64,000 nucleotides of DNA, from assembly GCA_037176725.1 (NCBI GenBank), contig JAZBRS010000020.1, positions 59,114,001-59,178,000 of the forward strand, written 5' to 3'. Origin of the DNA: Posidonia oceanica (Eukaryota; Streptophyta; Magnoliopsida; Alismatales; Posidoniaceae). Shown one piece after another: positions 13,237 to 37,213 of the stretch. A program made the position numbers and the translations under genes. The notes beneath the pieces are model-generated. The model was not told the origin of the DNA, did not search any database, and saw nothing but the letters and a program-made list of their open reading frames with translations. Within the stretch, counting starts at the first letter, position 1. Each line of letters opens with the position of its first letter.

Positions 13237-13447
13237 TGTAGATACCCCGTTTTGGCACTCCCTTCATGTTAGTATATTCCATTACATTAGGTCGCTCCTA
13301 GAAGCCCTTTGCTCAACCCAGGACGTCTCACTCAAGCCAAACACCTTCTCTCCGGTTCAAAATGTTATCCCTATCTATGCCCCAAGTGTCGGCAACTTGA
13401 ATGCTCTTCATGTCTTAACCAAATTTGGAGATGGACTGACTAAGGGT

Positions 13448-13531: not shown

Positions 13532-13705
13532 GTGGGAACCCAGTCAGCCCCCAAACTTTCTTTATTTGGCCAAATACAAAATCCGTGTTTTTGCCTTCTT
13601 TAGACGTTGTTGACCAGTCAAAGCAATTAACACCAGCTTAATGACATTTAATCATGTTTTAATTAGGGGATATTCCTTGTTCCTGGTAGCTGTGCTTCGG
13701 AGGCC

Positions 13706-13761
13706 GTTATCCGCTGGAATCCCAGCGTATAATGTTATCCGCTGGTTTTCCAGCGTATAAC
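13706..13761. repeat. Two tandem 28-nt hairpin modules in the A 5' LTR
   Basis: Units 13706-13733 and 13734-13761 with arms GTTATCCGCTGG and CCAGCGTATAAC (or AAT), 11 of 12 positions paired. They lie 64 bp upstream of the LTR TATA box. The 3' LTR copy is at 36348-36403. Confidence 0.9.
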
Positions 13762-13825
13762 ACCCCTGAATTGGAAAGTTGGCAGGTCTATTCATTCCAT
13801 TCCTTTCTTGTTCCTCCCCCACTTC

Positions 13826-13832
13826 TATAAAA
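13826..13832 (+). promoter_or_regulatory. LTR TATA box of element A
   Basis: TATAAAA in CTTCTATAAAATCAAGGG. In the 3' LTR the same position reads CTACAAAAGC, so the TATA is lost there. It would drive the genomic RNA of element A from the 5' LTR. Confidence 0.75.
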
Positions 13833-14569
13833 TCAAGGGTACCCTCACAGGGTCGGAGGGACGGTTTTTGGGATTAAAAAGGGATTTCTAGAGAGAAGTG
13901 AGATCCTTGAGAATTGAAATAGTGAAGAGAAATTTTGAAAGGTGGAGAGTCTTTGCAAGAGCTTGAGTTTCCCTTTGTCGTCAGTAACATCATGTCGACA
14001 TGTCTTGCACTTCGTGCATAGATAAAAGGGGACTCTATTTATTGTTTTCTTTTCTTTTTTTTTCATACCACATATTTAATTCCGTAGCATAATCAAGCAT
14101 ATTGAGTTCATATATTGTTGTAGCTAAGCATACATTTTCATCAGTTGCAACCGGGGGGATCAAACCCCTCGGGTACGTATTTCATTGTGTTTCTCCATTC
14201 TCTATTTATTCTGAATAAGTTACTATACCATATTGATCCATATTTGCATTATTTTTGTTTGTTTTGCTAATATTTGTCATACGAGGAGGAAGAAGAAAGA
14301 AGAAGAAACTCACCAAGCATGGGCACCCTTGGGCAACGCGGGCGTTGTCCCAAGGTAGCTGAACCCACAACCATCACACATCTCCCCAAGGCATCTCGAG
14401 GGCCAGCGAAAGCAAACCAAGAGTGGCGATCACACTGACTTCAACACACGTGAAGTAGAGAAGTTATATACAACAAAAAGAGGGACCCCAAGAAGGAGCA
14501 AACAGAAACAAAGGTGAAGCGAAGGCTTTCCCCTCCTCCTAACCTTCCCAAAATCCCATATCCACAGTC

Positions 14570-14857: not shown

Positions 14858-14913
14858 GTTATATGCGCAATCTGGTGCGTCCAACATTGGACGCTCCAGT
14901 ATACACGTCCAAC
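14858..14913. repeat. Two hairpin modules in the A leader
   Basis: Units of exactly 28 nt (14858-14885 and 14886-14913), starting GTTATATGCG and ATTGGACGCT and both ending CGTCCAAC. Confidence 0.8.
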
Positions 14914-16019: not shown

Positions 16020-16076
16020 GTTGAACGCGGAGTTTACTGCGTCCAACGTTGTACACTACATTTTGAGGCGTATTAC
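16020..16076. repeat. Two hairpin modules just before element A gag
   Basis: Unit 16020-16047 (28 nt, GTTGAACGCG...CGTCCAAC) and 16048-16076 (29 nt, GTTGTACACT...GCGTATTAC). They end about 40 bp before the gag ATG. Confidence 0.8.
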
Positions 16077-16117
16077 ACCCTGAAGTCAAATTTCATCTCA
16101 TTATCTTGGTTGCTACA

Positions 16118-18030
16118 ATGATGAACCACCAAGTCTTTAAAGCTAAACAACTAGAAAGAGAGAGGTCAGACTCAGCAAGTACGGCGGAAGAGGAGCCTAT
16201 AATCTACCATCCGACCACCGGAGTAGCCTTGGATCCAGATTCGATCCAGTATAAAGCCATGTATCTGTTCTTAAATGAAGAGACATCAACCCCTACGGGG
16301 CTATGTCAGAACAACCTCCAGCAGCCACCCCACCTCGGTGAAGGACAACGAAGGCCAGTTGCGGACCATACCCTGACGATCTATACCAGGGACAAAATAG
16401 CAACCCACCGCCGGATACGAACCACCCAGAACATGGTACAGCGCTCAACGGAGCTTATAACTCAAGGGCAAACCCCTTGATCCAAGAACAAAATCACATG
16501 CCACATGGCGAATACAAGGAAAGAGTCTATCCGCCCTACAGGCATCAAGGACAGCATCTCCAAGCACCTACGGCGGGCAATCAGCCTCAACCGGATTATC
16601 ACTACCACCAGGCATCTCCTCTGCGATATGAGCCAGTCGCACCTTAGCACTTCTACAATAGCTATCCTCATTAGCAGCAGAACCACCAGTCCTTCAATTC
16701 ACATATCCTGACCCCATCAATCGAGATAACAAATCTAGATGAGATGAGAAAAATGCCCAGCGCAATAGGGGTACATACCCAAGCTCCGGCAAACTTTGAT
16801 ATGAGCCGGTTTCCTCCATTCAGACTACCCTCGGGCTTCAAGTAACCGAAGACTCCCAAGTTCAACATGACCACCAACCCACTCAGTCACCTAGTGCGGT
16901 TCCAAATGGAGTCAGCCCCCTACTTCCATGACTTGGGGCTTGTCGTACACTTGTTCTTCTACTCGCTTGAAGGAGTGCCCATGGATTGGTTTCTCACTCT
17001 CTCCAAGGAAGACCCCAGCAGCTTTGATAAAATTAGAAAGAGCTTCCTCACAAAATACCAGCACAAGATAGATCCTAAATCGACCTTCCACGACCTAAGC
17101 ACGGAGGTCATAAAGCAAGGCAAAAGCTGGGTAACATTCGCCAACAGATGGCGAGAAATGGCAGTCAGATCAAGCTTGACCATTCCAGAGAGACAAGTGG
17201 TCCAAACCCTCATTGCAAACACCACTGGATCGATGAAGAAGGGACTTGTGAATGCCTACTGTCCCAATGTGACGACTTTATATGAAGTGGTAGCCTCTGT
17301 TAAAGAAAATCTGCATGAATTCATGGAGGAGCCCAAGAAGAGCTCGAAAACACAGATAGTAGAGGGCGTGACCGAAGTCATCAACAAAATGAGCTCTGCA
17401 CCCAGACCATCCAAAAAAAAGGCCATACTAGCTTCACAGCAGCCAACCTGGAGCCACCCTCCTCAGCAACAGCAAGCATGGAGCCGCCCTCCTCAGCAAC
17501 AGTAGGCATGGAACCCTCCTCAGCAACAGCAGGCATGGAATAACCCTCCTCCTCAGCAGTAGATCCACCCTATGTGGAATGCTCCCCGGCCACAATAGAA
17601 TAAGGGCAATCAAAATGACCAAGTCAACACCGAAAATCCCCACAACAACAGTGGGAACGGGGGCAGTTATCACAATGTTCCCCCTCCACAACTATTGCCA
17701 CGCAAAAGGGGAAGGAGAGACCATTACCCTCCTCTATCGATCACACTGGCAGATATGTTCATAGAGCTAGAAGATGCAAAAGCAATTGAACTCCCGCCAG
17801 CTAGGCCTGAATTACCTAGTGACCAGAGCAAATACTGCCCGTTCCATAGAATACATGGTCACAACATTAATGACTGTTGGACTTTCAGAGACACAGTCTA
17901 TGACATGGTAGAGGCAGATGTGTTCGAGTGGGACATCCTAGTAAAAAGAGCCAAACAGAAGAAACAGACAGGGACGTCTCAACAGGTCTACAATGATCCT
18001 CTCCCTAAGCATCAAATCATGGCATTCTAG
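16118..18030 (+). pseudogene. gag: Element A gag (capsid and zinc-knuckle-like region), broken
   Basis: The likely start is ATG 16118, following the hairpin pair. The N-terminal part (to 16480) has IIYHPTTGVALDPDS. A +/-1 frame change near 16470 leads into a Gln/Pro-rich stretch with TAG stops. The Retrotrans_gag core is open from 16867 to 17505: LVRF near its start, then HLFFYSLEGVPMDWF and a FLTKYQHKIDPKS segment. After Gln-rich repeats (17440-17580, several TAG), the frame resumes at 17695 and contains YCPFHRIHGHNINDC, a CxxH...GH....C zinc-knuckle variant common in Tat gag. It would form virus-like particles around the genomic RNA. It is not functional as it stands. Confidence 0.85.
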
Positions 18031-18081
18031 GACGAACAGCTCCCTAATCCGTTAACATCAAAAGACTGGGACAACCATGCC

Positions 18082-19332
18082 ATGCCAGAAGTAAACTGGG
18101 GCGGCCAAGCTGATAATGAGGGAATGATCTTAGATGATGACTGGGACAGTGAGGCAAACAAGGGGCTAACAATGGAAGATCTCCTTAGCCAATTCAACCT
18201 CACAGCAGTAGTGGAGAGACCACAAGATAATATAGAGGAAGAAAGCACTCTTGCCAAAGTTCAAAAGGCCAATCGGCAATTTGAATGAGAAAATATAGTC
18301 TTCAAAGATTCTGAGCTTCCGTCTCCACATAAGCAAGAGCTGCCGCTCGCCATCACAGTGGGCATCAATGACCATGTGCTGCAAGGAGTATTAGTTGACA
18401 CTAGAGCAAGCCGAAGCCTCAGTTCTCTCTCCACACTCCGGAGCTTAGGACTAGACGAAGATGAGCTAGACAAAACCCCCTTCATGTGCACTGGGTTTGA
18501 CCAGAACGAGAAACTAGCACTAGGGACAATGCCTATGGAAATCACAGTCGGTCCTTTGACCAATATCACTTCGGTGATCATCATGAAAGAGGAAGTCCTA
18601 GAACCCCTCATCCTTGGGAGATCTTGGCTAGCAGAGGTCGAGGCTGTAGCATCTCTAGTTCATCAAATGCTAAAGTTCAAATACCAAGGAGCGGTCATTA
18701 GCATTCCTGCTAATCGTCCGGGGATTCTATGCACATTCAATATGTCCGAGCCACAAATTGCAACCCTTTGGGAAAAGGAGGAATCACAACGTCTGCCATG
18801 GAGAAAATCATCACTATGGGCTCCCAAGCCGCTGTCACCACCGGTCTCACCAATCTTTAGAGCAGCTAGGCCACCGTCAAGTCAGTTGCCGACCCTCAAC
18901 ACTTCAGTATTCCAGAGCACTACTACTCCATCATCCCCAATCTTTCGAGTGCTAACAGAGCAGCTAGCTAGGGCCACAAAGCCACTAGAGCTTGGCGGAC
19001 CTGTACGAAAGGAGCCCATCTTCACTTGGCCATACAAGAAAGGAGCATCAAGCGGTCAAAGCAAAGGAAATGAGGCCGTGGCACCCATCACCAAAGGAGG
19101 AAGGTTATCAAATCGGATCATGCTACCAATAGAGCAAACAGAGCCAGTTAGACCTCAAGAAGGAATCAAGTCAGTAGAATATGACATCCTAGAGCAATTA
19201 AAGAAAACACAAGCCAGGATCTCAATCTATGATCTCATAAACAGCTCGATTCAACACCGGAATGCTGTGCAGGGAGTGCTAGAGAAGGCCAAGTTGCTCC
19301 AGATATGTCAGCAGAACAACTCCATGTTATAG
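18082..19332 (+). pseudogene. Element A first protease-like (retropepsin) domain plus linker
   Basis: The frame continues from gag. ITVGINDHVLQGVLVDTRAS (near 18351-18412) has the retropepsin pattern, but the glycine of the catalytic DTGAS is Arg. About 200 bp later LILGRSWL matches the hydrophobic-hydrophobic-GR pattern that closes a retropepsin. A Ser/Pro-rich linker follows (18780-19190). It ends with ARISIYDLINSS..HR (about 19210-19260), the motif that normally precedes the protease in Tat elements. A second, standard protease follows at once, so this one is an extra or duplicated domain. Confidence 0.7.
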
Positions 19333-19755
19333 CTACAGCAGCCTTTGTAGAACCTATCATCACATTTGCTGATAGTGAGTTGGCGCCAATAAAGAGGAGA
19401 AAAGCACCTTTAATTGTAACCATTTCTATAAACAATCAGTTGATTTCTGAAGTGCTCATAGACACTGGTGCATCCATGAACATTTGCTCTCTAAGCACAA
19501 TACAAGCCCTGGGTGTTAAAGAGGCCTCCTTAACTGCCATTGATATGACGATTGCCGAATATGATGACAGTAAAAGAAAAGTACACGGCAAATGGACTAC
19601 AAAGATCGGGATAGGACCAGCCCAGGTTCTAGCCCAACTAATCGTCATAGATATGAATGTCCCATAACAAATCATCCTCGGGAGGCAGTGGCTTGACAGT
19701 CTAAGAGGAGTATCATCCCCCAGGCACCAATGTCTGAAATTCCCCACAATGGGAA
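19305..19755 (+). pseudogene. pro: Element A protease (second retropepsin domain)
   Basis: APLIVTISINNQLISEVLID, then TGAS: catalytic DTGAS is intact at about 19461-19475. IILGRQWLDSL and HQCLKFPT follow, the usual C-terminal landmarks. A TAA at 19665 splits the domain just before IILGRQW. The frame differs from gag (shift near 19305) and from the next segment (shift near 19750). It would process the Gag-Pol polyprotein. Confidence 0.8.
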
Positions 19756-20737
19756 AATTATAAAGATATTAGAGGACATACTAGGCAGAGATGCAGAGGC
19801 CAATGTAATATACCTACCGCACCCGTTCAGCCTGCGAGAAAAGCCGACCTGCGCCGAAAAAGGCAAGAACATAGTATCCATGGTCGAGCTAAGGGACAAA
19901 TGGGCTAAGCCCAAGTTATTTCACAAAAAGAAGGGACCCTCCCAAAACAGAAGACCCTCCATGAATGTGGGATGGGAGATCATGAGGAGGATTGGCTACA
20001 AGGAAGGCTGGGGCTTAGGCCCAGGAGGGAAAGGAACGAAGGAGCCAGTAAAGGCTAGCGACAAGGAAGGGAAGGGAGGACTCGGTTTCAACCAGTTCCC
20101 CGACGGACGACCATTACAGTGGAATCTACAAGAACATTTCACCAGTGTAGGGATCTTCGATCCGAATTCATCTCCACTGGGAAATATTATTTTGGTGCAA
20201 TCAACCAAACACACTCTCCAAAGTGTAGAGGACACAGCCGACGAAAACATTTCCGGTTTATTCCAAATGCTTGAATTGCCTGTAGAGCCTCACGAAGGTC
20301 AGACTGCAAGGGAGTTGACAGTAGAGCCTCACGAAGGTCAAACTGTAGCAGCAGAGCCTCACGAAGGTCAGACTGCAGTAGAGTTGCCAACAGAGCCTCA
20401 CGAAGGTCAAACTGCAACATTGCAGCCACCACTGTTAGGCGCACCAGCCCCCAAACCTCCGAACAAGCCACCTCTTTCTCCTTCTTCTCCCTCTTCTTCC
20501 AACACCGCCACTTCCAAGCCTCCGCTTCCTCCTGCTCCGGACATCTCTTCCTCTTTGGTGCAAAGGCCGGGGCAAACTCTACGCAAGTTGCAACGACTCG
20601 TAGATAGGGTTCGCCGCCTCACAGCAAATCTCTCGGAAGGTCTGCAGCCTCAAAGGCCTGAAATTGACCCTGACCCAGGGCCACATCATGAGCTTTTCAA
20701 AGATGGTGGGAATATCGACCATGACAAGCCCGCCTAG
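19730..20737 (+). pseudogene. Element A G-patch region and Pro/Ser-rich linker
   Basis: A G-patch domain at 19967-20089 (residues about 80-120) shows GWEIMRRIGYKEGWGLGPGG, then a PVKA turn and GGLGF. G-patch domains follow the protease in many plant Tat polyproteins and in some retroviruses, where they bind nucleic acid. Four repeats of EPHEGQT come next (20282-20416), then a Pro/Ser-rich spacer to TAG 20735. The reading frame differs from both neighbours. Confidence 0.75.
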
Positions 20738-22157
20738 AAAGGCTCCTACCTCTACTAATGGAGGTAACTCTAGGGGCATCCCCCTAGATTCTGTAAATAA
20801 CACTTTGTTTAATTCTACATTGTTTTCATTTCCTAGGAATAAAAATGATTTACTTTCTATTTTCAATAAGGGAGAGGATCACCTTGTTAGTTCTAGCAGC
20901 TCGCGGTCGACTTCGACCACCGCTTCCAAGACTGTGCGCGTGTGTCAATACATGGAGACATTGCCTCAGAAGCTAGCTACTGCTAACATGGTCTTCCTAG
21001 AAGAAGAATTTGACTAGTTTGGGAAGTGTGCAGGGATAGAGGCATACGAGCTGGTTAGCTACAGTGATGAGGAAGAAGATTAGGAAGCCGACTCAGACCT
21101 CCTTAAGCACCTCATGGTCAAATATGATGAGCAAACAAAGGCAGCTGAAGAGGAGACCGTGGAGGTCAATCTGGGAACTACAGAAGAGCCAAAACCAATA
21201 CTCATAAGTGCAAGTTTGAGCCCGAACGAATGGGAGGAAATGGTACAAATCTTGAAGGAATTTGTGGATGTGCTAACCTTCAAGTACGAAGACATGCTTG
21301 GCCTACAATCAGCTCTAGTGGAACACCTGCTTCCACTAAACTCTGGAGCCAAATCCGTCAAGCAGAAACTGAGGCGATTAAGGCCGAAGCTCGCGCTTAA
21401 AGTCAAAGAAGAATTTGACAAGCTCCACAAGGTAAAGTTCATTAGGGTGGTTGTGTACCCCAGTTGGGTCTCAAATATAGTGCCAGTGGCCAAGAAGGAT
21501 GGGAAAGTTCAGGTTTGCATTGACTATCGCAACCTCAACGCCGCTTGTCCCAAGGACGACTTCCCTTTGCCACATATTGACTTGCTAGTGGAAAATACAG
21601 CAGGATTTGAGATGCTATCTTTCATGGATGGTTTCTCCGGTTACAACCAGATCAAACTAGCAGAGGAAGACCAAGAGAAGACGTCGTTCATCACGCCATG
21701 GGGGACATATTGCTATGTAGTCATGCCATTTGGTCTCAAGAACGCCGGTGCAACATATCAGAGAGCAATGATGGCCATCTTCCACGACATGATGCACGAT
21801 TGCATGGAAGTGTATGTTGATGACATCTTGGTCAAATCAAGGACAAGGAAAGGACACTTTGAAGCTCCGAGAAGGGTACTAAGCAAAGCAAGGCAATATC
21901 AGCTAAAAATGAACCCGAAGAAGTGCGTGTTTGGGGTAACTACCGGGAAGCTACTGAGCTTCATCATCAGTAAAAGAGGAATCGTGGTGGACCCACAGAA
22001 GACTAGAGCAATAGCACAGATGCCCCCACCCCAAAACATCAAGGAGCTCAAAGGACTTATCGGCTGCTTGCAGTTCATCAGAAGATTTATCTCACAACAT
22101 GCTGATCGATATAAGCCGTTTTATGAGCTATTGAAAGGAGGGAGGGAATTTACCTAG
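20664..22157 (+). pseudogene. pol (RT): Element A reverse transcriptase
   Basis: The frame runs 20664-22157 with TAG at about 21015 and 21080, and ends in TAG 22155. The RT core starts about 21350. Landmarks: PSWVSNIVPVAKKDG, VCIDYRNLNAACPKDDFPLP, FMDGFSGYNQIKLAEEDQEK, then FGLKNAGATYQRAM. The catalytic YVDD is intact at 21813-21824. It copies genomic RNA into cDNA in the particle. The catalytic residues I can see are present, but the downstream frame is broken. Confidence 0.9.
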
Positions 22158-22700
22158 GATGAGAAATGCTAGAAAGCTTTTGATGAGCTCAAAGCATACC
22201 TCATGAATCCCCTAGTCTTATCAGCGCCTATATCAGGAAAGCCTTTGTTGCTCTATGTGGCAGTTACCGCATCATCAATAGGAGTAGTGCCAACGCAACA
22301 TGGTGAGGATGGAAAGAAGGAGAAAGCTATCTACTACCTGAGTAGAACCTTCCTGGATTATTAAGAGAAATATACAGCCATAGAAAAGCACTGCTTGGCC
22401 TTGGTATGGGCATCTCAAAAGCTGAGACACTACTTCTTAGCCCATAAAGTCTGTTACATAGCCAAGATGGACCCAATCAAATACATGTTCGAGAAGCCAG
22501 CCCTCTCTGAAAGATTAGCAAGATGGCAACTCCTCCTCACTGAATTTGACCTACAATATGTACCTCAGAAAGTAGTCAAGGGGCAAGCCATTGTAGATCA
22601 CTTGGCGGAATTACCAATAGAAGATTATCAACCAGTCCAAACAGACTTCCCCAATGAGGAAATACTGGAAATACAAGCTACAGAGTCTCCCACTCGATAG
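22158..22700 (+). pseudogene. pol (RNH): Element A RNase H (retroviral-type, likely degenerate)
   Basis: Same frame as RT, broken by TAG 22170 and TAA 22362, ending TAG 22698. AFDELKAYLMNPLVLSAP, AIYYLSRTF, then YTAIEKHCLALVWASQKLRH and KGQAIVDHLAELP are the usual connection/RNH landmarks. Where Ty3 elements have an active-site Asp (LYTDAS type) this reads LLYVAVTASS. This fits the rule that the first RNH of Tat elements has lost catalysis. Confidence 0.8.
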
Positions 22701-23165
22701 TGGACTCTCTACTTTGATGGAGCACTCAACAGACAAGGGGCAGGCATCGGAGTAGCACTTCTCACTCTAGAAGGAGTTCTCATCCCCCGAGCTGTACAGC
22801 TAAACTTCACCGCAAATACCAACAATGTTGTAGAGTACAAGGCCTTGATCCTCGGACTACGCCTAGCACTGGAGCTAGGGGCAAAGCGGCTAAAACTCAT
22901 CGGAGACTCCTAGTTGGTTCCAAGGCAAATTTTGAACAAGTATAGAACCCTCAACCCAAGGCTTGAAGAGTACAAAGGCATTGCTCGCCTCCTATTGGCC
23001 CAGTTTCAGCAAGTGGTGTATGTCCATACCGTCCGGAGTCATAACCTGCTAGCAGATGCTCTCGCTTCATTGGCTTACTCAATCAAGTTCCCCATCAATG
23101 TCCAGGAGCAAACAATAATGGTACAGCAACACGGGACACCTGCCATTGACTCAACTGAGCCATAG
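22701..23165 (+). pseudogene. pol (aRNH): Element A second, archaeal-type RNase H (aRNH)
   Basis: WTLYFDGALNRQGAGIG starts the domain. The acidic residues fit an active enzyme: Asp in YFDGA, Glu in NNVVEYKAL, Asp in KLIGDS, and Asp in LLADALASLA. TAG 22911-22913 stands where the family has Gln (GDSQLV). A dual RNH is the diagnostic mark of the Tat lineage and is thought to supply the working RNA-DNA hybrid degradation. Confidence 0.85.
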
Positions 23166-24488
23166 GCCGTGGAGCTTAGATAGAAAGCTGGGGAATCAAA
23201 GGCAGCCAAGTTTGAAGTTTGCTACAACATAGAGGATGATGGGAACCCATGGTTCTTTGACATCCAGAACTACATTCAAGACGGGATCTTCCCCAACTAT
23301 GCAACTTCACAAGACAGAGAGGCAATTAGGAGAATGGCCACAAGATACTTTATGAGAGCCAGAGTCCTTTTCAAAAGGTCTTTCAGCGGAATAGAGCTGC
23401 ACTGCGTCACTTACAAGGAGGTTGAAGTTATCACTGGAGAAATGCATGAAGGCATATGTGGAGGACACATCAGTTCTCAGTTCATGGCAAAAACGATACT
23501 GTGTCGAGGGTACTACTGGCCCACAATGGAGCCAGATTGTACAAACAAGGTGAGAAAGTGTAGGCAATGCCAGATCCTTGCAGACAGAATACATGCACCA
23601 ACATCAGAGTTAAATCCGACTCAAGCAGTATGGCCTTTCTCCATGTGGGCGTTTGACGTTGTAGGACCCTTCGACACCGAAAAGCAGAATAGGTTCATAC
23701 TCACAGCCACTGAGTACTTCACCAAATGGGCTGAAGCAGAAGCGTTCACTGAAATCAAAGCTTCAAATCTTTGCAAGTTTGTGTGGAAAAATATCCTTTC
23801 ATGGTTCAGGATCCCAAAGAAACTAGTAGCAGACAATGGCGCAATCTTCGTATCCCAAGACTTCAAAAAGCTCTATAAGAAGTTTAAGATTGAATTGCAT
23901 TATTCATCGCCATATTACCGCCAAGGTAATGGGCAAGTTGAAGCTACTAATAAAACATTAATCCAAATCCTTAAGAAAACGGTAGAAGGAGCCAAGGGAC
24001 ATGATTGGACAAATAAGTTAATTGATACCTTATGGGCCTATCGAACCTCCATAAGAACACCTACGGGTCAAACCCCGTTCGCGCTTACTTATGGTATGGA
24101 GACAATAGTCCCATTTGAGATCATGGTCCCCTCATCTAGGGTACAACTTGATGATGAGATAAATACCAAGGATAAGAGGCAATTATTAAGTCTACAGTTG
24201 GATTTGCTAAATGAGAAGCGGTTGCAAGCAGCTGAGCATGCACGCCTCTACCAAGAACGACTTGCAAGAGCATATAAGAAGAAAGTAATTGAACGTAAAT
24301 TCAATGTTGGTGAATGAGTGCTTAAAGAAATCCTTCCTCGCAAGCATGGGAAACTGAGACCAAATTGGGAAGGACCATACTTGGTGGTTGAGGCATATCC
24401 AGGTAATGCCTATTGTTTGGCCAGAGAGGATGGCACTAGGCTTGAATATCCCTAGAATGCACTGCACCTCAAGAGGTACTACCCTTGA
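23166..24488 (+). pseudogene. pol (INT): Element A integrase
   Basis: After TAG 23163 and 23181, the frame is open 23334-24317. A zinc-binding HHCC domain is visible: MHEGICGGH and KVRKCRQCQ. The DDE core has Asp in MWAFDVVGPF, Asp in LVADNGAIF and Glu in GNGQVEATNK, all intact. Then WAYRTSIRTPTGQTPF and the C-terminal GKLRPNWEGPYLV. Later breaks are TGA 24315 and TAG 24453; the natural end is TGA 24486-24488 after LKRYYP. It inserts the cDNA with a 5-bp stagger, in agreement with the TCCAC duplication. Confidence 0.9.
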
Positions 24489-25257
24489 CATGCACACTGA
24501 GCCATTAGACTACTCGTGCTTGAGAACCTACTATTCCCGAAGCCTAAGAATCATACCCTAACCTCACCTCACAAACACCTTGTGGGAGAAGGAGGGAAAA
24601 TGGACCAACACTGAGATAGAGGCAAATCATAAGGAACCCCCTCCCAGTTCATGAACAACAAGTCTACACACATCCCTTGAGTCAGACATGTTACCCTAGT
24701 ACAAATTGGGTAGGCGTCTAAAGCCAAAACTTAGAAGCGTAAAAAAGAGGAGAGTGTACCAAATAGAAGAGTGTCTCAGTCCGCCAAGGAACGAATATCC
24801 ATTGGCCAAGCGCTCAAACGGGATGAGACTACTTGCCAAAGTACCCAAAAAGGAAAAAGAAAAAGGGGAAGAAAAGAAGGCAGCAAAGAAGCTGTCCATG
24901 TGCAAGAAAAGAAAGAGAATGGAAAAGAAGGCAACAAAGAAGCTGTCTAGGAGTCAAAACTAAAAAAATTGGGAAAATACTGAGACATAGTAGGAATCAA
25001 CCTTGAACTAGGAGGGATATAGGCTTCAAATCTTCAGCTGACATCTTAGGATAGGACATTGACCTTCCTTCCACCTACATCCTACACCGTACACATTAGA
25101 GGCAAGGGGCAGAAGCCTGGGTCTAGGGGCAGTCAAGTGCCAAAACAAGCCAGAAGTATTCATGGCTTTGGGATGCACAAGGGACCAAATTATCAAGGTT
25201 TTCCAACCATGAGGTCTTCTGTTTTCCAACTTCTTGAACGATTCTTCTTTCCCTATG

Positions 25258-25926: not shown

Positions 25927-25997
25927 GTTGGACGCGCTATCTGAAGCGTATAACGACCAACAGAGGAATATTGGACGCATGCTATTACGCCTCTTAC
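25927..25997. repeat. Hairpin modules downstream of PMD1
   Basis: 28-nt unit 25927-25954 (GTTGGACGCG...CGTATAAC) and 25970-25997 (ATTGGACGCA...CCTCTTAC), with a degenerate unit just before (ending GCATCCAAC at 25926). Confidence 0.75.
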
Positions 25998-26190
25998 ATT
26001 TTAACAGTGACTTAAACTGCAGAATTCTGACAAAGGACTCTTGATCAAATATCAAAGCCACCAGGGAGTATTTCTAAACTCAGAACAGTCCAAAGCACAT
26101 GAACAAGGATGAAAAATAAAAGATATATTTATTTCCTTAAAAAGATAAAGATACATGGTCCCAAAAGTAAAAAAAAAATGCAATAATTGC

Positions 26191-27536
26191 CTATCTAATT
26201 GTCTTCTTCCTTTTCTTGCACAGCATGCTGGTCGCTTCAACCCACTCCTCGGGTTTGGGTAGTAGCTTTGAATACCGCCTCCAGTGCGCATCCTCCCGTA
26301 GTAGGTAGCAAGTCAAGGGAGCAGCTGATGTCCCATCTGAATCATCAAGGTGGTCCAGAGACGACGAAAGAGCTCAAATGTAGTACACCATCACTGCATC
26401 GGATGGAAGACTGCGCTCCCGAACCCGAATACGAGGAATAGAACTCAGCCGAGGCGGCACCCCTTTCTTCTGCCCCACCATCTCGAAGCAGCGATGGGAG
26501 TTTTACACCACAAAGTGAGCGGGTCCTTTCAACTCCAACTCAACTGAAGAACCTCACGCCTGGTGCTTATGATAGAAGGGTGTGGAAGGTGCAAAGATAT
26601 CGATAGGGGTAGAAGCCAAAGAGCAAACCCTTTCCTCGATCAAATCAGTCCTCGCAGGCCCGAGCCTCAGGAAATGGACCTGTAGCCACCTGGAAAGAAG
26701 AAAAGGAGAGCCTACAAAATCCCCTCCAGTTAAGACACTGGTCAGACCAAGGTATGTAGTTGCAAGGATGGCGACTGAAGGAGAATGCCAAAAATGTTCA
26801 GTAAGGCCTATTGGGAACTCAATGTGATAGACATCCAAAGAGAAGTCTCTAGAGGCAAACACAGTAAGGCCCCCTATCAGCAAGTGTAGACACATCAGCA
26901 ACTGATCCTGGGAAGCAGAGTCCTCGATCCGCCGGAAGCTGTAGTACAAATGTGCCAAGTTGAGTCGGCGACCTCTGGTCATAGGGAAAGTAGGCGAAGT
27001 AGTGAAGATACGGTCTATGAATGTCTGCATATCCGCTGTCCCGCATAGCAATGGAAAATCAATATCTGACCGTGCCGCTCCAATCTGAGTCACACCAAGC
27101 AGGCCATGAACATCCTCCACTAGGATTGTCATCTCATAGCCCCCGAAGAAGAAAGTATGAGTCTCAGAACTCCAGAAGGCGCATGAGGCATGAAGTAGAG
27201 GCCAGTCCAAGGGGGTGTCCAATAAATCTAGAAGTCCACCAAAGTGTGAACGGGTCAAGACAGACTTCCTTTCCTGAGCCCAAAGTACAAAGTCTTTCAC
27301 CCATGGAGAATAGTAAGGGAAGTCATTATCAAAGCAAGGTGTTTTTGTGAAATTGAGGATTTCCTGCAAACAATGTTAAAAGCATGAGGAATAAGAGAGA
27401 ATAGAAGGACCAATGGAAAAAATCATACCTTCCCCTCTTTGATATGGGACATCATATGCCCTTCAATCTCCTCTAGTGGTTTTGCAACTCCCTTCTTGTT
27501 GTGCATGAAAACGTTGGGGACTGAAGCAGAAGCCAT
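26191..27536 (-). pseudogene. PMD1: antisense plant-mobile-domain gene, two exons
   Basis: I infer exon 1 at 27536-27429 (ATG, 36 codons) and exon 2 at 27363-26191 (390 codons plus TAG). The 65-nt intron (27428-27364) has AAG|GTATGA and TTTGCAG|GAA borders and is phase 0. The predicted length is 426 aa, the same as PMD3. PMD landmarks: LDTPLDWPLLHASCAFW, ETHTFFFGGYEMTILVEDVH, GLLGV, LLIGGLTVF, YLGLTSVLTGGDFVGSPFL. The C-terminus has KKRKK, a possible nuclear localisation signal. In-frame stops TGA 26556, TAA 26505 and TGA 26376 break the end of exon 2; the first 305 codons are open. TATAAAA lies at 27639-27633. PMD proteins of the MAIN/MAIL type are nuclear factors; a role for this copy is unknown. 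Confidence 0.85.
27364..27428 (-). other. Spliceosomal intron of PMD1 (minus-strand only)
   Basis: Read on the minus strand the segment starts GTATGATTT and ends TTGTTTGCAG. It interrupts the PMD1 frame between two codons. On the plus strand it has no GT-AG borders. Confidence 0.8.
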
Positions 27537-27632
27537 TAGAGCAAAGAGGAAGAGAGGAACAAGCAAAAGGCAAGAGAAAATCAGCAAGGATGTAAGGGGC
27601 AAGTGTGCACAAGTCCCAAGGGGTGGCCAGGC

Positions 27633-27639
27633 TTTTATA
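27633..27639 (-). promoter_or_regulatory. TATA box of PMD1
   Basis: TATAAAA on the minus strand, about 97 bp before the inferred ATG at 27536. PMD2 and PMD3 have TATA-like boxes at nearly the same distance. Confidence 0.7.
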
Positions 27640-27750
27640 AGCACAGGAAGACCATTGGAGATCCTCCACGCGGGCATTGAGAAAATTTCACAGCATTCTG
27701 AAAGATTAGTCAAGAACAGGAAAGGAAAGAAAAGATTCTGGGCTCGCTTC

Positions 27751-27882
27751 GTTGTACACGGTCGATACTACGTCTTATGTTAGCCGCGCCATATCAGGTG
27801 CATAACGTTCAAATCAGCTTTCTGACGTTGGACGCAGAAAATCAAGCGGATAACGCTGTCCGCACCAGCATACACGTACAAC
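27751..27882. repeat. Five hairpin modules upstream of the PMD1 promoter
   Basis: Units 27751-27778, 27779-27806, 27807-27826 (truncated), 27827-27854 and 27855-27882. The full ones are 28 nt, with GTTGTACACG, GTTAGCCGCG and GTTGGACGCA starts and ATAAC or ACAAC-like ends. In the transcription direction of PMD1 they lie 112 bp upstream of its TATA. Confidence 0.8.
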
Positions 27883-28363
27883 ATTTTATCAGTGACTTAA
27901 GTCACTGAACTTGGCTGTGGCTCCCTCTAATCCATGATTAAGTGGCATAAACCTTTTTTATCAGTCCCAGAGGTTTGTTTAAGTTGAAATACTCATGTGA
28001 GTAGTGGTTTCATATTTCTTGGACGTCCAGGCCATTCAGAATCACTGGTTATTCATTTCATCAAGTTAATGGCTCGCTTGAGCATCGAGGACTTCAGAAC
28101 TCAATTTTAAAGCTTCCAGGTGAAATCATTCTTTATAACTATGTCATTTACATCTCATTTCACGTGAATAAGCTGGTTTCGAGTTATTTTAAATTAAAGG
28201 CCATTATTTTGCTATATTGGTCACTTAAGTTCATTTTAACTCCGAGAAAGGTATTTTAAAAGAGACATTTGACTAGTTTTGCTGAGTGCGCAGAAATCTA
28301 TATCATTTAAAAATATAACTGTTCTACAAGATCACCGAGGCATACCCTTGAAGTACAAGAAAG
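27883..28363. other. Spacer between PMD2 and the PMD1 upstream region
   Basis: AT-rich sequence with no ORF and no repeat that I can recognise. It would hold the 3' UTR of PMD2 (minus strand, downstream of 28364) and distal PMD1 promoter sequence. Confidence 0.5.
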
Positions 28364-31300
28364 CTAAGGTGCACTCTCTCCCTCACCCTCGGGAACTGAA
28401 GGAGGAACCAGAGAAGGAGCGGTAGGAGGCTGAGGCGACTGGCGAACAGGAACACCCGACGGAGCCCTGGAGACAGACCGAGAGCGATGGCTACCCGACT
28501 GGTGGCTCGGTACAAGAGGAACAGGCACCCCAAACCTGGCACCAGTCATAAAAGCAAACCTTCGGTAATGTCCTAGCTCAGACTCAAGCTGAGAGGTGAC
28601 CCCCGCCGTGCCCTGCAAAAGAAGCAACCAGAATATTAAACACAAGCATAGAGGACATAAAGGAGCATTGAATCAAATCATACCGCCTGAGCCAGAGCAA
28701 CCTCGGTATCCCTGTCAGCAACCTGCTACCCTAGCTCCCGAATCCGAGCGTCCCTAGCAGCAACAGTCCCCTCCAGCTCCTCCAACCTCCCAATAGAGCT
28801 AGCAGCAATGAAGTCACCAACCTGCTCCTTTAGCTCACTCCCCAGATAGGCAACCTACAAGCAGTAATGTCAAAACCAAGAAGGATTTAGCTAAAAGCAA
28901 GAAGGAAAAGTAATAAAGGCATTTATACCTTATCTTGGAGACGGGAGATCTCCTATGAATGGCCCGAAGGAGGGGCAGTGCTAGTTGAGGGCTGCAAAGA
29001 AAGGAGATACAGTCAGCTACAGTTCATGATCAAACTACGAAAGCTACATGAAATATAAAGATACTTGAGAGGCGGAAGCGCGCAGGTGCTCGATCTCTCC
29101 GAACAGAACAGAGAGCTGTTGAGTCAGACTACGCTCCCACTGAGCCCACTCATCTGCTGCTTTGAGCTGCGAAGGAAGGAAAGCAAGTTAGTAAATCATC
29201 AAATGTGGATCAGCAATTTACAAAATAAAATTCAAAAGCTCATCGCTATCTCCAGCTGGGCTCGGTAAGACTGGGCCTCCCCTAGTAGGGCCGCTCGAGA
29301 CATCACGGCCTCCCCGGGATCTGTGTCCCCCAAAGGAAGGTTCCTGCGCCTGAGGAAGTGGGACCGGTGGAAGACCATCAAAGAGGAGAACTCCTGGTCC
29401 ATCCACTCGGCCCACACCACCTCATCCTCCTCTGTCGTGTCTGTCAGAGCGAGAGAACCACGGCGAGCCCAGTCCAGGAGCTGCGGACCGTAGACGTCCA
29501 TCCAATGGTGAGCACGGCTCCCCCCACCGCGTGTCTCTCACCAAACCCTATGAGGAGGTGGTAGAGGCTGAATCTGCCAGCACCCCAGCTACCGTAGTGT
29601 CCTGCCTATCTGCTGAAAATGGCAATGGTTCCAGTAATGGATCCACACATCTTGGTCAAAACTTGCCTGGTCACGGGCAATCTCAGGAATGTCCGCATGC
29701 TCTCCCTCAACATATGGACGCCAGATTACCTGAAGAGAGCAATACATGTCAGCAAATAGCATAAATAAATAAACAGAAGCTGAAAAGTCGAAAGAGGGCA
29801 AATTACTTGAGTTGGAACCAGCAACTCGAAAAGAAGGCGACCAACATAGCGGTTGTCATTCGCAGGCTCGAGGGCTTGCTCAACATCAGCCCAGAACAAT
29901 CCTCGAGGGAAAGGAACGCCGGTAGAAGGAACTGGAGGAGGGGCAGGGCGCAAGAAAGCAAAGTGGTCTCATGCCCACATCTGCACAAAAATGAGGAAGC
30001 TTTCAGTAACACATAATATTCAGCAATATTTCTGAAAGTTACAAATTTAAGCATGCATCTTACCTAAAGAAAAGGCAGATTCCCACCTAACTGGTGAGAA
30101 CTATCATCTGTAAAGCAGAAGAGTGTGGAGTACAGGTGTGCCAAGCTGGCCGCACCCCAAGCATACTCCCCCACTCGACCCAAATCAGCTAGAAGAGGCA
30201 AGAAGACGACAGACAGCTTGGAAGAAGCATGAGAGAAGAGGACCTCCCCGAACAACACCAACAGGAAAGCCCTGAGCTGCTGGTCAGCCTCTGCACCTGG
30301 CCTAGCCACCGTCGCTGTCAACTCCTCAACTCGGCGGATCACAGAAGAAATAAATACAAGTTGGTGCCCATGCATGGTCACCTGCCTGTCTACCAACTCC
30401 CTCACCATACCGGTGTAATCTGAGCAAACCTACCCAGCCACCGGGCGGCCTATCACCCATAGGCCAGTCAGCTGGGCCATGTCCGCCAGTGAAAGTACGA
30501 ACTCACCCACCCTCGTGACAATAGAGCTAGTACAGAAGTTGTACCGCTCCGGCACTGCCTCCAGGAACATGGGATGAAGGGGAAAGTCGAGAATAGACAG
30601 GAAAGGTCCAAATCCCATCTCCCCTTGGCACTCCTGCTGAAAGGGAGCCAGCATGTCGTAGGACCCGCGGACCAGCCCCCAGTAGCACTGAATCACCGTC
30701 GGGGCCCAACTCTGCAAAAGAAAAGAAAAGAATTGTCAAGTAGGTAGATATAATCAAACTAAATGAGGAAAAGATTAAAAGGAAGGTTACCTGTCCTTTC
30801 AAGGCCAAAGTGGCAGTGGCATACTCCAGCCGAGACGCGTCCCTACATGATCCCGATACCTGAACCTCGTCACAGGGTATCTGGGCCTGCCAAAAGTCTG
30901 GGGGATCCATGGCACCACCCTCCTCTTGCTGGACGAAGTCTAGAATATTGCGGTACCACCCGTCGTCCTCGCCAAACTAGGCAACTAAAGGATCGACAGG
31001 CGCCGCCTCGGGCACCTCCTCCTCGGAAACCGTCTCCTCTGAGTCCTCCTCCTCAGAACAAGTGGGATCACCGGAATCCGTGCTCGAAACTACCCTGATC
31101 TCGGCAGCACCATCGCCGATAGCCCCCGTTTCTGTTTCTGCAGCCACTGTGCTTACAACCGCCGCCTCGACCTCCGTGGCATCGTCACCCGCTACCCCAG
31201 TAGTCACCTCAACCTCTGCGGCATCACCGTCGGCCACCACCGCAGCCTCTGCGACATCACCATCGGTCACCACCTCGGTCACCACAGCCATCACCTCCAC

Positions 31301-31573
31301 AGCAGCTGGGCCCCCCTCCACAGCCTCCCCAGACGCCGTCCCAGCTTCCGTAGCCATGGCCACCACTTCCGCAGCCGGAATGCCGGCCTCCACGGTCGCA
31401 GCTCTGCCTACCGCAACCCCAACAGCAGCCTCTACAACCTTTGCCACCGTCTCCTCTACAGTCAGGGCGGCTACCGGGACCTCCGATGTAGGCTCGCCGG
31501 GAGTCGAAGGCCCGAGTCCCGTTCGGGCACGTTTTGCCGTCTGAGAGTAGAAATGAGAAATCCGTTTCTCCAT
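28364..31573 (-). pseudogene. PMD2: antisense plant-mobile-domain gene with about eight exons and a coiled-coil tail
   Basis: Inferred exons on the minus strand: 31573-30791, 30711-30064, 29980-29807, 29729 to about 29230, 29166-29065, 28991-28929, 28854-28684, 28612-28364. Six of the seven introns have clear GT-AG borders, lengths 71-83 nt, all phase 0; the donor after exon 4 is unclear. Exon 1 is a Glu/Val/Ala-rich acidic region. Exon 2 carries the PMD core (SSIVTRVGEFVLSLADMAQL, TGLWVIGRPV). Exon 3 begins with MWA-stop-DHF, the WAWEH-like motif of the family, and exon 4 with VIWRPY. Exons 5-7 look like coiled coil. Eight in-frame stops are present (30979, 30432, 30066, 29971, 29591, 29540, 28955, 28728). 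Predicted length is about 890 residues. TATAAAA at 31668-31662. Confidence 0.8.
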
Positions 31574-31661
31574 TTGGAACGACTTCGCTGGAATCAAAAA
31601 AATGTCGCTGGAGAAGAGGAGAAGAGAAGGAAAGATGCCCACCCGCAGTGTAAGACGAAGG

Positions 31662-31668
31662 TTTTATA
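31662..31668 (-). promoter_or_regulatory. TATA box of PMD2
   Basis: TATAAAA on the minus strand, about 90 bp before the inferred ATG at 31573 and directly downstream of hairpin modules. Confidence 0.7.
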
Positions 31669-31677
31669 CTAATCAAC

Positions 31678-31813
31678 ATTATATGCGTGTACTGGGACGT
31701 CCAACGCATCGGAGGCATTGAAACGTTGTCCACATAAACTAACGCGGCTAACGCCCCAAAGAAGGGAGATCGTTATACACAGGAACGGTTGCAGAGAACA
31801 TTGGACGCAGCAG
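31678..31813. repeat. Hairpin modules between PMD3 and the PMD2 promoter
   Basis: Full 28-nt units at 31678-31705 (ATTATATGCG...CGTCCAAC), 31725-31752 (GTTGTCCACA...CGGCTAAC) and 31772-31799 (GTTATACACA...CAGAGAAC), a 19-nt truncated unit between the first two, and a partial unit from 31800 (ATTGGACGCAGCAG). Confidence 0.75.
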
Positions 31814-31915
31814 TTCACTTTGATAAAGAAGCCATGGAAACATGCCAGAAGGAAGGGGAAGTAGGCAAAGGAAAATAAAAAACAACTTTATTAATGATTA
31901 AAAATAAAATACTGA

Positions 31916-33273
31916 TTACAACTTTCGCTTCTTTGCAGGGGACTCAATAAATAATTTGGGCCTCACGCTCTCATACCAAGCGTCATGAGTGGTAAGGGAA
32001 ATCGCTTCGCGGTCTGCATTTGCATTTTCCCACAAAGAGAGGACTCGGTTCCGCCCCTTCCCATCCCAAGCACCAGCCTAATAGAAAACCTGAATGACGT
32101 CCCCAAGGGTGTCTCTCAAGCATGGAAGAATCATGTCAGAGAAACGAGGCAAGGGAGGTATGGCTCGGGGAATGCCCAGCATCGAGAAGCATCGTTGGGG
32201 GTTGTACCTCACAAAGTCGGTCGTCCCAATCAGCGGCAGGAAGTACTCTAGGTCAGACACTGTCCTGAAAGACAAAGGAGGACTGAAGGAGTCCATCTGG
32301 GGCTTGACCTCACAGGCACATAGACGGCGAATGTACTCCTCCAGGGGAAGGCTAGCATCAAAAGCAAACAGAAGAAAATGCTCCTCCAACTAGCGCAGAA
32401 CTAGGAAAGGCGAGCCGAAGAACGGTCCCCCAAGGTAGGCACTGGATAAGCCCCGGATAGTAAAAGCCAACACAGATTGACTCAGGCATTTCTCTGGATT
32501 GCGAACGCAGATGCACATGAGCTCAGCATGATAGGCGCTGATGGTTAGAGTTTCATTGGGGAAGAATACCAGCCCTCCTATCAGAATGAAGACACACTCC
32601 ATGCAAGAAGCCTCAGAGCGGATGCTATCGCATTGCTTCCAGAAAAACTTCCACAAGGAGGAGAGATTGATACAACCGTCTAGCACCAGGTCCTCTGGCA
32701 CAACAACAGGGCTGAAGATGCGCGTTAAGAGGGAGAAAGAGCCTACCACCCCGATTGGCAAAAGATAGGCATCCCTGTAGTAAATGGTTGGGTCGACTTG
32801 TCAAGTGCCTAAAAGGATGCTCACCTCCTCCAAAAGAATGGTCAAGTCCCCTGAAGAGGTAAAAAATGTCTGGGTCAAAGGATTCCACAGCCCGTAGAGG
32901 CCAAAAAGCACCTTCCAGTCAACAGGCTGTCGTAATTGACGGAGAGCTTGACAAAGGCCAGCCTCCTCCAAGCACTCCCGATACTTTTTCAATGCCCATG
33001 AGCGGAATTGCTGAACCCAGTCCAACTGGTAGGCTTTCGAGTCACATTTGTTGTTGGCAGAGGCCAAGGGCTATGAAGTAGAAAAATCAGCATAGATAAA
33101 AGAATACAAGAATGGGAGCATGAAGTAATAACGAAAGTGGAAAATACCTTCTCAGGCACCAGAAGGTTCGCCAAGTGATTAGGTATAGCCTCCAGCCGAA
33201 GTTGCATCGTGTCGGAAGGAGAAGAAAAGACAGCCACCTGGAAGGCATGATGGGGGATATCTTTCAAATCCAT
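31916..33273 (-). pseudogene. PMD3: antisense plant-mobile-domain gene, two exons
   Basis: Inferred exon 1 33273-33148 (ATG, 42 codons), intron 33147-33071 (77 nt; GAG AAG|GTATTT and TTCATAG|CCC; phase 0), exon 2 33070-31916 (384 codons plus TAA). Total 426 aa, equal to PMD1. Shared landmarks: LRQPVDWKVLFGLYGLW, LTQTFFTSSGDLTILLEEVS, LIGGLVFF, SAYLGGPFFGSPFLVLR. The protein ends PAKKRKL, very like a monopartite nuclear localisation signal. Stops at 32803, 32392 and 32080 break exon 2. AATAAA follows the stop by about 25 bp on the minus strand. TATATTA at 33372-33366 is about 95 bp before the ATG. It is a diverged paralogue of PMD1 inside one element. Confidence 0.82.
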
Positions 33274-33365: not shown

Positions 33366-33372
33366 TAATATA
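33366..33372 (-). promoter_or_regulatory. TATA-like box of PMD3
   Basis: CTATATTAG on the minus strand, about 95 bp before ATG 33273; spacing equals that of PMD1 and PMD2. Confidence 0.5.
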
Positions 33373-33474: not shown

Positions 33475-33558
33475 GTTATACGCAGCTGTCTTGCCGTCCA
33501 ACGTTAGCCACGGCTTTTAGTCCGTCCAACGTTGAACGCTAAAAATCCAGCATCCAAC
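33475..33558. repeat. Three tandem 28-nt hairpin modules upstream of PMD3
   Basis: Units 33475-33502, 33503-33530 and 33531-33558, starting GTTATACGCA, GTTAGCCACG and GTTGAACGCT, all ending TCCAAC. They lie about 100 bp upstream of the PMD3 TATA-like box. Confidence 0.88.
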
Positions 33559-34772: not shown

Positions 34773-34789
34773 TTAAAGAACCCCGGAGC

Positions 34790-35878: not shown

Positions 35879-37208
35879 TGTAGATACCCTGTTTTGGCAC
35901 TCCCTTCATGTTAGTATAGTCCATTACATTAGGTCACTCCTAGAAGCCCTTTGATCAACCCAGGACGTCTCACTCGAGCCAAACACCTTCTCTCCGGTTC
36001 AAAATGTTATCCCTATCTATGCCCCAAGTGTCGGCAACTTGAATGCTCTTCATGTCTTAACCAAATTTGGAGATGGACTGACTAAGGGTGTTGTATGCTA
36101 GATTCCCAGCTTACAACGTTGGCCGCAGTTTTCCCAGCGGCTAACATTGGCCGCTAGTTGTCTAGCGTCCAACGTGGGAACCCAGTCAGCCCCCAAACTT
36201 TCTTTATTTGGCCAAATACAAAATCCGTGTTTTTGCCTTCTTTAGACGTTGTTGACCAGTCAAAGCAATTAACACCAGCTTAATGACATTTAATCATGTT
36301 TTAATTAGGGGATATTCCTTGTTCCTGGTAGCTGTGCTTCGGAGGCCGTTATCCGATGGAATCCCAGCGTATAATGTTATCCGCTGGTTTTCCAGCATAT
36401 AACACCCCTGAATTGGAAAGTTGGCGGGTCTATTCATTCCATTCCTTTCTTGTTCCTCCCCTGCTTCTACAAAAGCAAGGGTTCCCCCATAGGTTCGGAG
36501 GAACGGTTTTTGGGATTAAAAAGGGATTTCTAGAGAGAAGTGAGATCCTTGAGAATTGAAATAGTGAAGAGAAATTTTGAAAGGTGGAGAGTCTTTGAAA
36601 GAACTTGAGTTTCCTTTTGTCGTCGGTAACATCATGTCAATATGTCTTGCACTTCGTGCATAGATAAAAGGGGACTCTATTTATTGTTTTCTTTTCTTTT
36701 TTTTTCATACCACATATTTAATTCTGTAGCATAACCAAGCATATTGAGTTCATATATTGTTGTAGCTAAGCATACATTTTCATCAGTTGCAACCAAGGGG
36801 ATCAAACCCCTCAGGTACGTATTTCATTGTGTTTCTCCATTCTCTATTTATTCTGAATAAGTTACTACACCATATTGATCCATATTTGCATTATTTTTGT
36901 TTGTTTTGCTAACATTTGTCATACGAGGAGGAAGAAAAAAGAAGAAGAAACTCACCAAGCATGGGCACCCTTGGGCAACGCAGGCGTTGTCCCAATGTAG
37001 CTGAACCCACAACCATCACACATCTCCCCAAGGCGTCTCGAGGGCCAACGAAAGCAAACTGAGAGTGGCGATCACACTGACTTCAACACACGTGGAGTAG
37101 AGAAATTAGATACAACAAAAAGGGGGACCCCAAGAAGGAGCAAACAAAAACAAAGGTGAAGCAAAGGCTTTCCCCTCCTCCTAACCTTCCCAAAACCCCA
37201 TATCCACA
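35879..37208 (+). repeat. Element A 3' LTR
   Basis: 1330 bp, TGTAGATACCCTG to ATATCCACA. Colinear with 13237-14566 (offset 22642) with about 45 substitutions and no net length change. The TATA is changed to TACAAAA (near 36468). It is followed by TCCAC. Confidence 0.95.
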
Positions 37209-37213
37209 TCCAC
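37209..37213 (+). repeat. Target site duplication of element A, right copy (TCCAC)
   Basis: Exact match to 13232-13236. Confidence 0.95.

Follow-up and report, generated by a model that had tools for sequence, protein, structure and literature searches.

Extra open reading frames (ORFs) bearing a plant mobile domain (PMD) reportedly occur in Tat/Ogre elements, a description credited to Steinbauerova in 2011 that we know via citing papers. Here, we analysed a 64,000-nucleotide stretch of Posidonia oceanica DNA (contig JAZBRS010000020.1, positions 59,114,001 to 59,178,000; hereafter the window), in which a Ty3/gypsy long terminal repeat (LTR) retrotransposon, element A, carries three intron-bearing PMD genes on its minus strand. 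An earlier annotation made from the letters alone (the original prediction) had pointed to PMD sequences in Ty3/gypsy elements and to antisense ORFs in some Tat elements, and the literature agrees: PMD in the extra ORFs of 57% of Ogre elements (PMC6317226; PMC5418596), PMD clades confined to Gypsy elements (PMD-A1/A2; PMC5418596) and accessory ORFs in antisense orientation (PMC11963269; PMC7264820) are all already on record in the available text of these papers. Element A is thus like the Tat/Ogre elements in having PMD within extra ORFs of a Ty3/gypsy element, a feature of the Ogre lineage that is not exclusive to it; however, the introns, the three genes per element, the promoters of their own and the shared dyad that we find in element A are not described in those excerpts. 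Similarly, the antisense ORFs of Retand carry TRP28 (PF04195), which matched none of the antisense pieces of element A that we scanned, and maize Grande has gene23, which uses a promoter of its own for transcription and yields a nuclear protein, whereas intron-bearing gene sets and LTR-shared dyads are absent from what is available of the Retand and Grande descriptions (PMC11963269, PMC7264820). Our literature search, conducted mostly outside subscription papers, found no earlier account of antisense PMD gene sets with introns or of a shared dyad, and a search with the dyad 9-mers and 14-mer returned nothing on plant elements among the matches listed.

Other points of comparison are the VANDALs, which are DNA transposons. 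According to the accessible parts of the reports, VANC21, which has a DUF1985 domain, binds arrays of a 9-base motif in its own non-coding DNA (PMC5735166), and related families use different motifs (PMC5735166, PMC10398659). The combination of a transposable element (TE)-encoded protein with short-motif arrays in the non-coding DNA of its own family recurs in element A, except that the VANC21 motifs have a single orientation whereas those of element A form dyads of fixed spacing. The PMD proteins MAIN and MAIL1, which are encoded by host genes, unlike those of element A, affect transcription and TE silencing and have been tied to a promoter motif (PMC7156037, PMC9899485; partial text). Intron-marked retrotransposition reporters likewise hinge on the orientation of the intron relative to the copied RNA, with the difference that the reporter intron is spliced out of the sense RNA and lost (PMC12786077, as far as available), whereas the introns of element A would be spliceable from antisense RNA only and are therefore kept.

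Three antisense PMD genes in a Tat-like element

Between the integrase and the 3′ LTR of element A, the minus strand holds three PMD genes with two, eight and two exons. The original prediction had placed them there, and both its gene models and the PMD homology were borne out. The PMD homology, the gene 1 intron found in every locus read and purifying selection specific to the reading frame make a chance arrangement improbable. In what follows, counts over 30 loci refer to the best 30 of the gene 1 matches in the genome (29 and the window copy), and counts over nine aligned clusters to eight other copies and the window.

26128..26133, minus strand: AATAAA past gene 1, present in 28/30 loci
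26191..27536, minus strand: gene 1 (PMD), exons 27536-27429 and 27363-26191; three early stops in the window copy; C-terminus KKRKKTIR
27364..27428, minus strand: gene 1 intron, 65 bp; GT in 28/30 loci, AG in 27/30
27633..27639, minus strand: gene 1 TATA box, 103 bp before the ATG; TATAAA in 27/30 loci (counted by eye)
28364..31573, minus strand: gene 2 (PMD), eight exons, 31573-30791, 30711-30064, 29980-29807, 29729-29244, 29166-29065, 28991-28929, 28854-28684 and 28612-28364
31662..31668, minus strand: gene 2 TATA box, 95 bp before the ATG; in 7/9 aligned clusters
31916..33273, minus strand: gene 3 (PMD), exons 33273-33148 and 33070-31916; three early stops in the window copy; C-terminus SPAKKRKL
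33071..33147, minus strand: gene 3 intron, 77 bp; GT in 9/9 and AG in 8/9 aligned clusters
33366..33372, minus strand: gene 3 TATA-like box (TATATTA), 99 bp before the ATG; in 8/9 aligned clusters

The nine introns measure 65-83 bp and are richer in T than the exons (48% vs 27%, nine introns pooled). The original prediction had given them GT-AG borders and phase 0, which holds for the phase of all nine and for the borders of eight, the donor of gene 2 intron 4 being lost in the window copy; it had also announced a TATA-like box 90-97 bp before each ATG, and there is indeed one per gene, but at the slightly different distances listed above. The minus strand of 24491-35878 contains four TATAAA, two of which are the boxes of genes 1 and 2, and the sole TATATTA is the gene 3 box. 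AATAAA follows genes 1 and 3, and the remaining 13 minus-strand AATAAA fall, many units having one, in a 44-bp tandem array of 25.8 copies located upstream of gene 3 (33643-34770). Judging from the reading frames, the window copy itself cannot produce full-length proteins, in that genes 1, 2 and 3 are interrupted by 3, 8 and 3 in-frame stops, the terminal ones not counted.

A comparison with the Pfam PMD profile (PF10536, cut-off 34.9 bits), which the original prediction had put forward as a check, placed one gene above the cut-off and the others below it: a gene 2 piece matched with E 1.1e-12 and 48.3 bits, whereas gene 1 exon 2 (E 6.6e-8, 32.5 bits), the gene 3 piece (E 2.3e-5, 24.2 bits) and a second gene 2 piece (E 5.2e-4), all queries from broken genes, remained under it. 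Gene 1 exon 2 also matched DUF7745 marginally above the cut-off of that family (26.2 vs 26 bits). Genes 1 and 3 are distant paralogues (about 30% identity), and gene 3 had no relative among the public proteins searched. The C-termini of both resemble nuclear signals, and a basic end similar to that of gene 1 is seen in most of the 30 gene 1 loci. An AlphaFold model of gene 1 exon 2 was discarded (mean pLDDT of 39), and a sequence search of the PDB with the PMD protein alignment A2 gave no match.

The element that hosts these genes has the following parts.

13237-37209: element A, Tat-like Ty3/gypsy element, from LTRs, target-site duplication (TSD) and domain order
13237..14567, plus strand: 5′ LTR, from LTR alignment; TATA box at 13826
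16067..24490, plus strand: gag-pol region, with gag-like, protease-like, G-patch, reverse transcriptase (RT), two RNase H and integrase domains, split into several ORFs
35879..37209, plus strand: 3′ LTR, from LTR alignment

Both LTRs are 1331 bp long and align without gaps at 96.6% identity, and the TSD, TCCAC, is found on both flanks. The Pfam matches of the gag-like and protease-like domains were under the cut-off. A second RNase H precedes the integrase (RT_RNaseH at 22365-22700, then RVT_3 at 22701-22913), and RVT_3 is presumably the Tat-specific, archaeal-type RNase H domain. From its LTRs, TSD, gypsy domain order and second RNase H, element A thus appears as a Tat-like Ty3/gypsy LTR retrotransposon. 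The G-patch domain lies in the polyprotein region, at 19697-20737 on the plus strand.

Copies of the genes, their introns and purifying selection

The genome of the element itself (2.96 Gb, 80 contigs) yielded at least 143 scored matches to gene 1 exon 2, the window copy counted, at 86% identity or more, and the family of element A is large. In all 30 loci read, the gene 1 intron has the same position and a near-equal length. Over the 269 gene 1 codons searched, 12 of these loci are free of stops and 18 have at least one, so that gene 1 copies open across this stretch do exist. Genes 2 and 3 were looked for in 20 of the 29 other copies, over the 5.1 kb that precede gene 1. Eight of these copies cover both genes, the threshold being more than 80% for gene 3 and for gene 2 exons 2-4 alike; the three-gene cluster is not fixed within the family. 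Among the remaining copies, L062 and L063 have gene 3, gene 2 not being found in the 5.1 kb, and in L042 a deletion fuses gene 3 to gene 2 exon 7.

Across the nine aligned clusters, the gene 3 intron and gene 2 introns 1, 2, 3, 5 and 6 are of near-constant length, and the GT/AG borders of these five gene 2 introns are present in 9/8, 9/9, 9/9, 7/9 and 9/9 clusters, respectively. Gene 2 intron 4 has its AG in 9/9 clusters and a GT donor in five of the eight other copies listed; the comparison was made over all introns but gene 2 intron 7. The view that antisense introns are kept through rounds of copying, advanced in the original prediction, agrees with this steadiness, and the likeliest explanation is that copying goes through the sense RNA, where reversed introns cannot be spliced.

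To look at selection, variants were binned by the number of copies that share them, with the window codons as context and with transitions and transversions kept separate, and the ratios of nonsynonymous to synonymous polymorphism (pN/pS, given below as transitions/transversions) were compared by Fisher tests. In gene 1 exon 2 (n=30), pN/pS was 1.28/0.83 for private variants and 0.45/0.06 for shared ones (p 2e-9). Shared variants were likewise constrained in gene 3 (0.46/0.28, p 6e-4, n=9) and in gene 2 exons 2-4 (0.61/0.56, p 3e-4, n=9), whereas private values ranged from 0.83 to 1.28, i.e. near 1. The wrong frames of gene 1 gave 1.16/0.84 and 1.43/1.95 for shared variants (p 0.91 and 0.72), and intergenic DNA treated as codons gave 0.94/0.70 (p 0.07). 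In the wrong frames of genes 2 and 3, shared transitions stood at 0.92-1.33 (p 0.42-1), and the transversions, at most nine per case, were scattered, down to 0.21; over the six Fisher tests on wrong frames, private and shared variants were indistinguishable (p 0.42-1). Thus, all three genes are under purifying selection specific to the coding frame. That shared variants are constrained while private ones are near neutral indicates that the PMD proteins mattered during the spread of the family, and that single copies decay after insertion. The usefulness of the cluster to the element, which neutral ratios in the PMD exons were to have contradicted, therefore gains support. Taken as a whole, the original prediction held in part, as regards gene structure, intron retention and usefulness to the element, and had mentioned neither the early stops nor the dyad shared with the LTRs.

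In genes 2 and 3, introns are more conserved than exons (0.93-0.99 vs 0.87-0.92, six clusters), perhaps because they have few cytosines to lose after insertion; given this higher conservation, intron-versus-exon divergence was rejected as a proof of coding.

Outside this genome, public contigs contained three relatives of gene 1, and short ones 16 close relatives of gene 2 exon 2 (56-86% identical), to which one further short sequence and ten taro proteins are to be added. Nine of the 16 continue in frame beyond the exon end, each with V (GT) immediately next, and three (P0007, P0009 and P0011) have different ends. A search of viral contigs found no relatives. Within the own genome, contig C62 has some 20 or more strong PMD matches at 0.37-1.86 Mb, many of them about 25.4 kb apart, a pattern suggestive of a PMD-bearing unit repeated in tandem.

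The 28-bp dyad in element A and across the genome

The 9-mer GTTGGACGC and its variants are concentrated in the LTRs, the 5′ leader and the antisense intergenic stretches, where they form a 28-bp dyad unit, GTTN3CGC-N10-GCGN3AAC, often repeated head to tail. Each of the three antisense promoters carries such dyads, as do the LTRs and the leader.

13448..13531: three head-to-tail dyad units, 5′ LTR
13706..13761: two dyad units, 5′ LTR, ending 65 bp before the LTR TATA box
14858..14913: two dyad units, 5′ leader; more at 15620-15675 and 16020-16047
25927..25954: exact dyad between integrase and gene 1; weaker units (three mismatches) at 25899 and 25970
27779..27882: three dyad units upstream of gene 1; at least one in 29/30 loci
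31725..31799: two dyad units upstream of gene 2, weaker unit at 31678; in 9/9 aligned clusters
33475..33558: three head-to-tail dyad units upstream of gene 3; in 8/9 aligned clusters
36090..36173: three dyad units, 3′ LTR; two more at 36348-36403

With up to two anchor mismatches, element A has 24 dyads (LTRs 10, leader 5, four antisense intergenic stretches 9), none of which lies in coding DNA or in the 44-bp array, against a Markov expectation of 0.28 on average and a maximum of 3 in 200 runs. Since the pattern had first been spotted by eye, two further tests were made. When a matrix was built solely from 40 sites located elsewhere than in element A, 23 of its top 24 matches in element A fell within the LTRs, the leader or the antisense intergenic stretches, the other being in gene 2. 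An unguided scan of gapped trimer pairs, covering five non-coding stretches (leader left out) against coding DNA, ranked CGC-N10-GCG at the top, with 12 counts (two strands, 4.6 kb) vs 0 in 14.3 kb of coding DNA. The spacing is strict: over the 30 loci, the upstream region of gene 1 has 99 dyads with spacing 10 and none at 8, 9, 11 or 12, and over the nine clusters 20 dyads precede gene 3 and 26 precede gene 2, one being at spacing 9. Downstream of gene 1, the same 30 loci hold 61 dyads, with at least one within about 1.1 kb in 29/30 loci; in the window, no gene or TATA box was seen alongside this cluster (25899-25997). A descent of the promoter dyads from LTR pieces is not favoured, there being little similarity between LTR and antisense promoters beyond the units (the best match, gene 3 upstream vs LTR, is 65 bp at 72% and spans dyad units).

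Genome-wide, exact dyads with spacings of 9, 10, 11 and 12 number 307, 65,123, 123,619 and 110, respectively, as compared with 71, 5, 117 and 21 for the backwards controls. Of the spacing-11 units in the window, 28/29 fall in the LTRs of a second element, element B, and of its neighbour. Element A has mostly spacing 10 and element B mostly 11; their tolerance of the middle bases also differs. The LTRs of element B lie at about 42067-44853 and 60644-63464, and a 147-bp tandem repeat array precedes its 3′ LTR (59329-60237). Among spacing-10 loci sampled by pattern alone (the first 12 listed, all from the start of one contig), nine are clearly in A- or B-like elements, L047 and L048 are B-like over short stretches only, and L049 is unmatched. 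By place, they comprise two A-like LTRs, two clear B-like LTRs and the two short matches, two leaders, and one site each upstream of gene 1, downstream of gene 1 and upstream of gene 3, L049 having none. Eight PMD loci of other kinds have no dyads at spacings 7-13; the five loci read from the contig C62 array are free of dyads.

A candidate regulatory circuit and its rivals

From the strict spacing of two inverted half-sites with a tolerant spacer, which points to a dimeric DNA-binding protein, and from the recurrence of the dyad ahead of the TATA box of the LTR and of those of the three antisense genes, which points to common control, we tentatively propose (probability of roughly 45%) that the PMD genes encode nuclear regulators, and that the dyads at the sense and antisense promoters are bound by a dimeric factor, itself probably PMD-encoded. 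The PMD proteins are the best candidates for this factor because they are co-inherited with the dyads, constrained and probably nuclear. The element A family would thus carry a three-gene antisense accessory set encoding PMD proteins, each gene being transcribed from its own TATA promoter, with dyads in common with the LTR and the 5′ leader, and its RNA spliced. The gene 1 and gene 3 proteins are predicted to enter the nucleus via their Lys/Arg-rich C-termini, and one or more of the PMD proteins would most probably bind the dyads, thereby jointly controlling sense transcription and the expression of the regulators. The effect would probably be an activation or un-silencing of the family, comparable to that of VANC proteins on VANDAL transposons; VANC proteins may in this respect serve, by analogy, as a working precedent for dyad-binding PMD proteins. 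Sequence comparison suggests a weak but repeated link between PMD and the VANC domain, 11 of the 26 PMD proteins of alignment A2 matching DUF1985 weakly (best E 3e-4).

Several observations weigh against this proposal. The DUF1985 score of the gene 2 piece, 18.2 bits, is far under the cut-off of 35.1, and the DOWN motif linked to MAIN/MAIL1 differs in sequence from the dyad (PMC9899485, available part). Within the 5.1 kb examined, the full set of genes 2 and 3 is absent from 12 of the 20 other gene 1 copies, which show deletions, other DNA or only one of the two genes. No selection signal was seen in gene 2 exon 1 or exons 5-7 (nine clusters), and gene 1 exon 1 (36 codons) gave no significant contrast (p 0.53). 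Conservation over the 30 loci is no higher at the dyad anchors than in the intergenic DNA around them (0.805 vs 0.847); by base class, the anchors are slightly more conserved at A/T (0.91 vs 0.88) and CpG (0.72 vs 0.68) and less so at other C/G (0.80 vs 0.84). The spacing is not strictly element-specific, for B-like LTRs also have spacing 10 (41327, 43221 and 61792 in the window; loci L057 and L058). Lastly, B-like elements combine related dyads with another extra gene: the only such ORF seen in element B is PMD/DUF7745-like and lies past pol on the sense strand (56546-57534, plus strand), and a piece of it (57145-57534) matches PMD positions 149-287, intronless and under both cut-offs. This ORF was not used as a control for intron loss, being a single case in a region where genes 1 and 3 are intronless too.

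The sharing of dyads by element types with different extra genes, and of both spacings by B-like LTRs, would also suit a host transcription factor that binds the dyads and drives the LTR and antisense promoters, the PMD proteins acting otherwise in the nucleus, for instance by helping integration or evading silencing. This possible but rather unlikely explanation requires no element-encoded protein; yet some 190,000 dyads, mostly within transposons as far as sampled, would be unusual for a host factor, the eight PMD loci of other types are free of dyads, and the different spacings and middle-base tolerances of elements A and B better fit specialised factors. It is improbable that the dyads are instead RNA or DNA hairpins (9-bp stem, 10-11 nt loop) serving RNA processing or packaging. 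Internal dyads would indeed be part of the full-length sense RNA, and the middle three bases of the arms are also complementary in 32 of 98 distinct dyads vs 13.8 in shuffles, an excess to which family structure may contribute. Nonetheless, loops of 9 or 12 fold equally well and those spacings are some 200 to 1100 times rarer, many element A dyads have non-matching middles, and the arrays sit upstream of the LTR and antisense TATA boxes.

Two further explanations would make the PMD proteins irrelevant to the element. Regulation through double-stranded RNA formed by the antisense transcripts has been proposed for antisense ORFs (PMC7264820), and phased siRNAs arise from PMD loci in tea (PMC10673657), according to the available portions of both papers; it is weakened by the coding-frame constraint on shared variants in all three genes, and we consider it less probable still than hairpins. 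The least probable of all is that the genes are a useless passenger, i.e. captured host genes or a nested DNA transposon. PMD is known in host genes and MULE transposons (PMC5418596, in part), but gene 1 has at least 143 matches, the 30 read are under purifying selection and have their dyads in comparable positions, and no transposase was seen among the minus-strand pieces scanned.

Returning to the proposal of PMD-encoded regulators, its widest form would be an LTR element with its own regulon, the intron-kept antisense genes encoding sequence-specific DNA-binding factors that counter silencing through dyad operators, both those of the LTR and those of the antisense promoters themselves, with control partly separated between related families by changes in dyad spacing (10 or 11 bp) and in the middle half-site bases; we regard this extended version as doubtful. 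As regards the function of retrotransposon-encoded PMD proteins, the dyad provides a concrete candidate target, strictly spaced and present some 190,000 times in this one genome. The antisense introns show a route by which an element copied through RNA can carry multi-exon genes for many rounds. The host silencing proteins MAIN and MAIL1 may derive from PMD proteins of the retrotransposon kind. If PMD proteins bind the dyad, LTR elements would own an equivalent of the VANC anti-silencing system.

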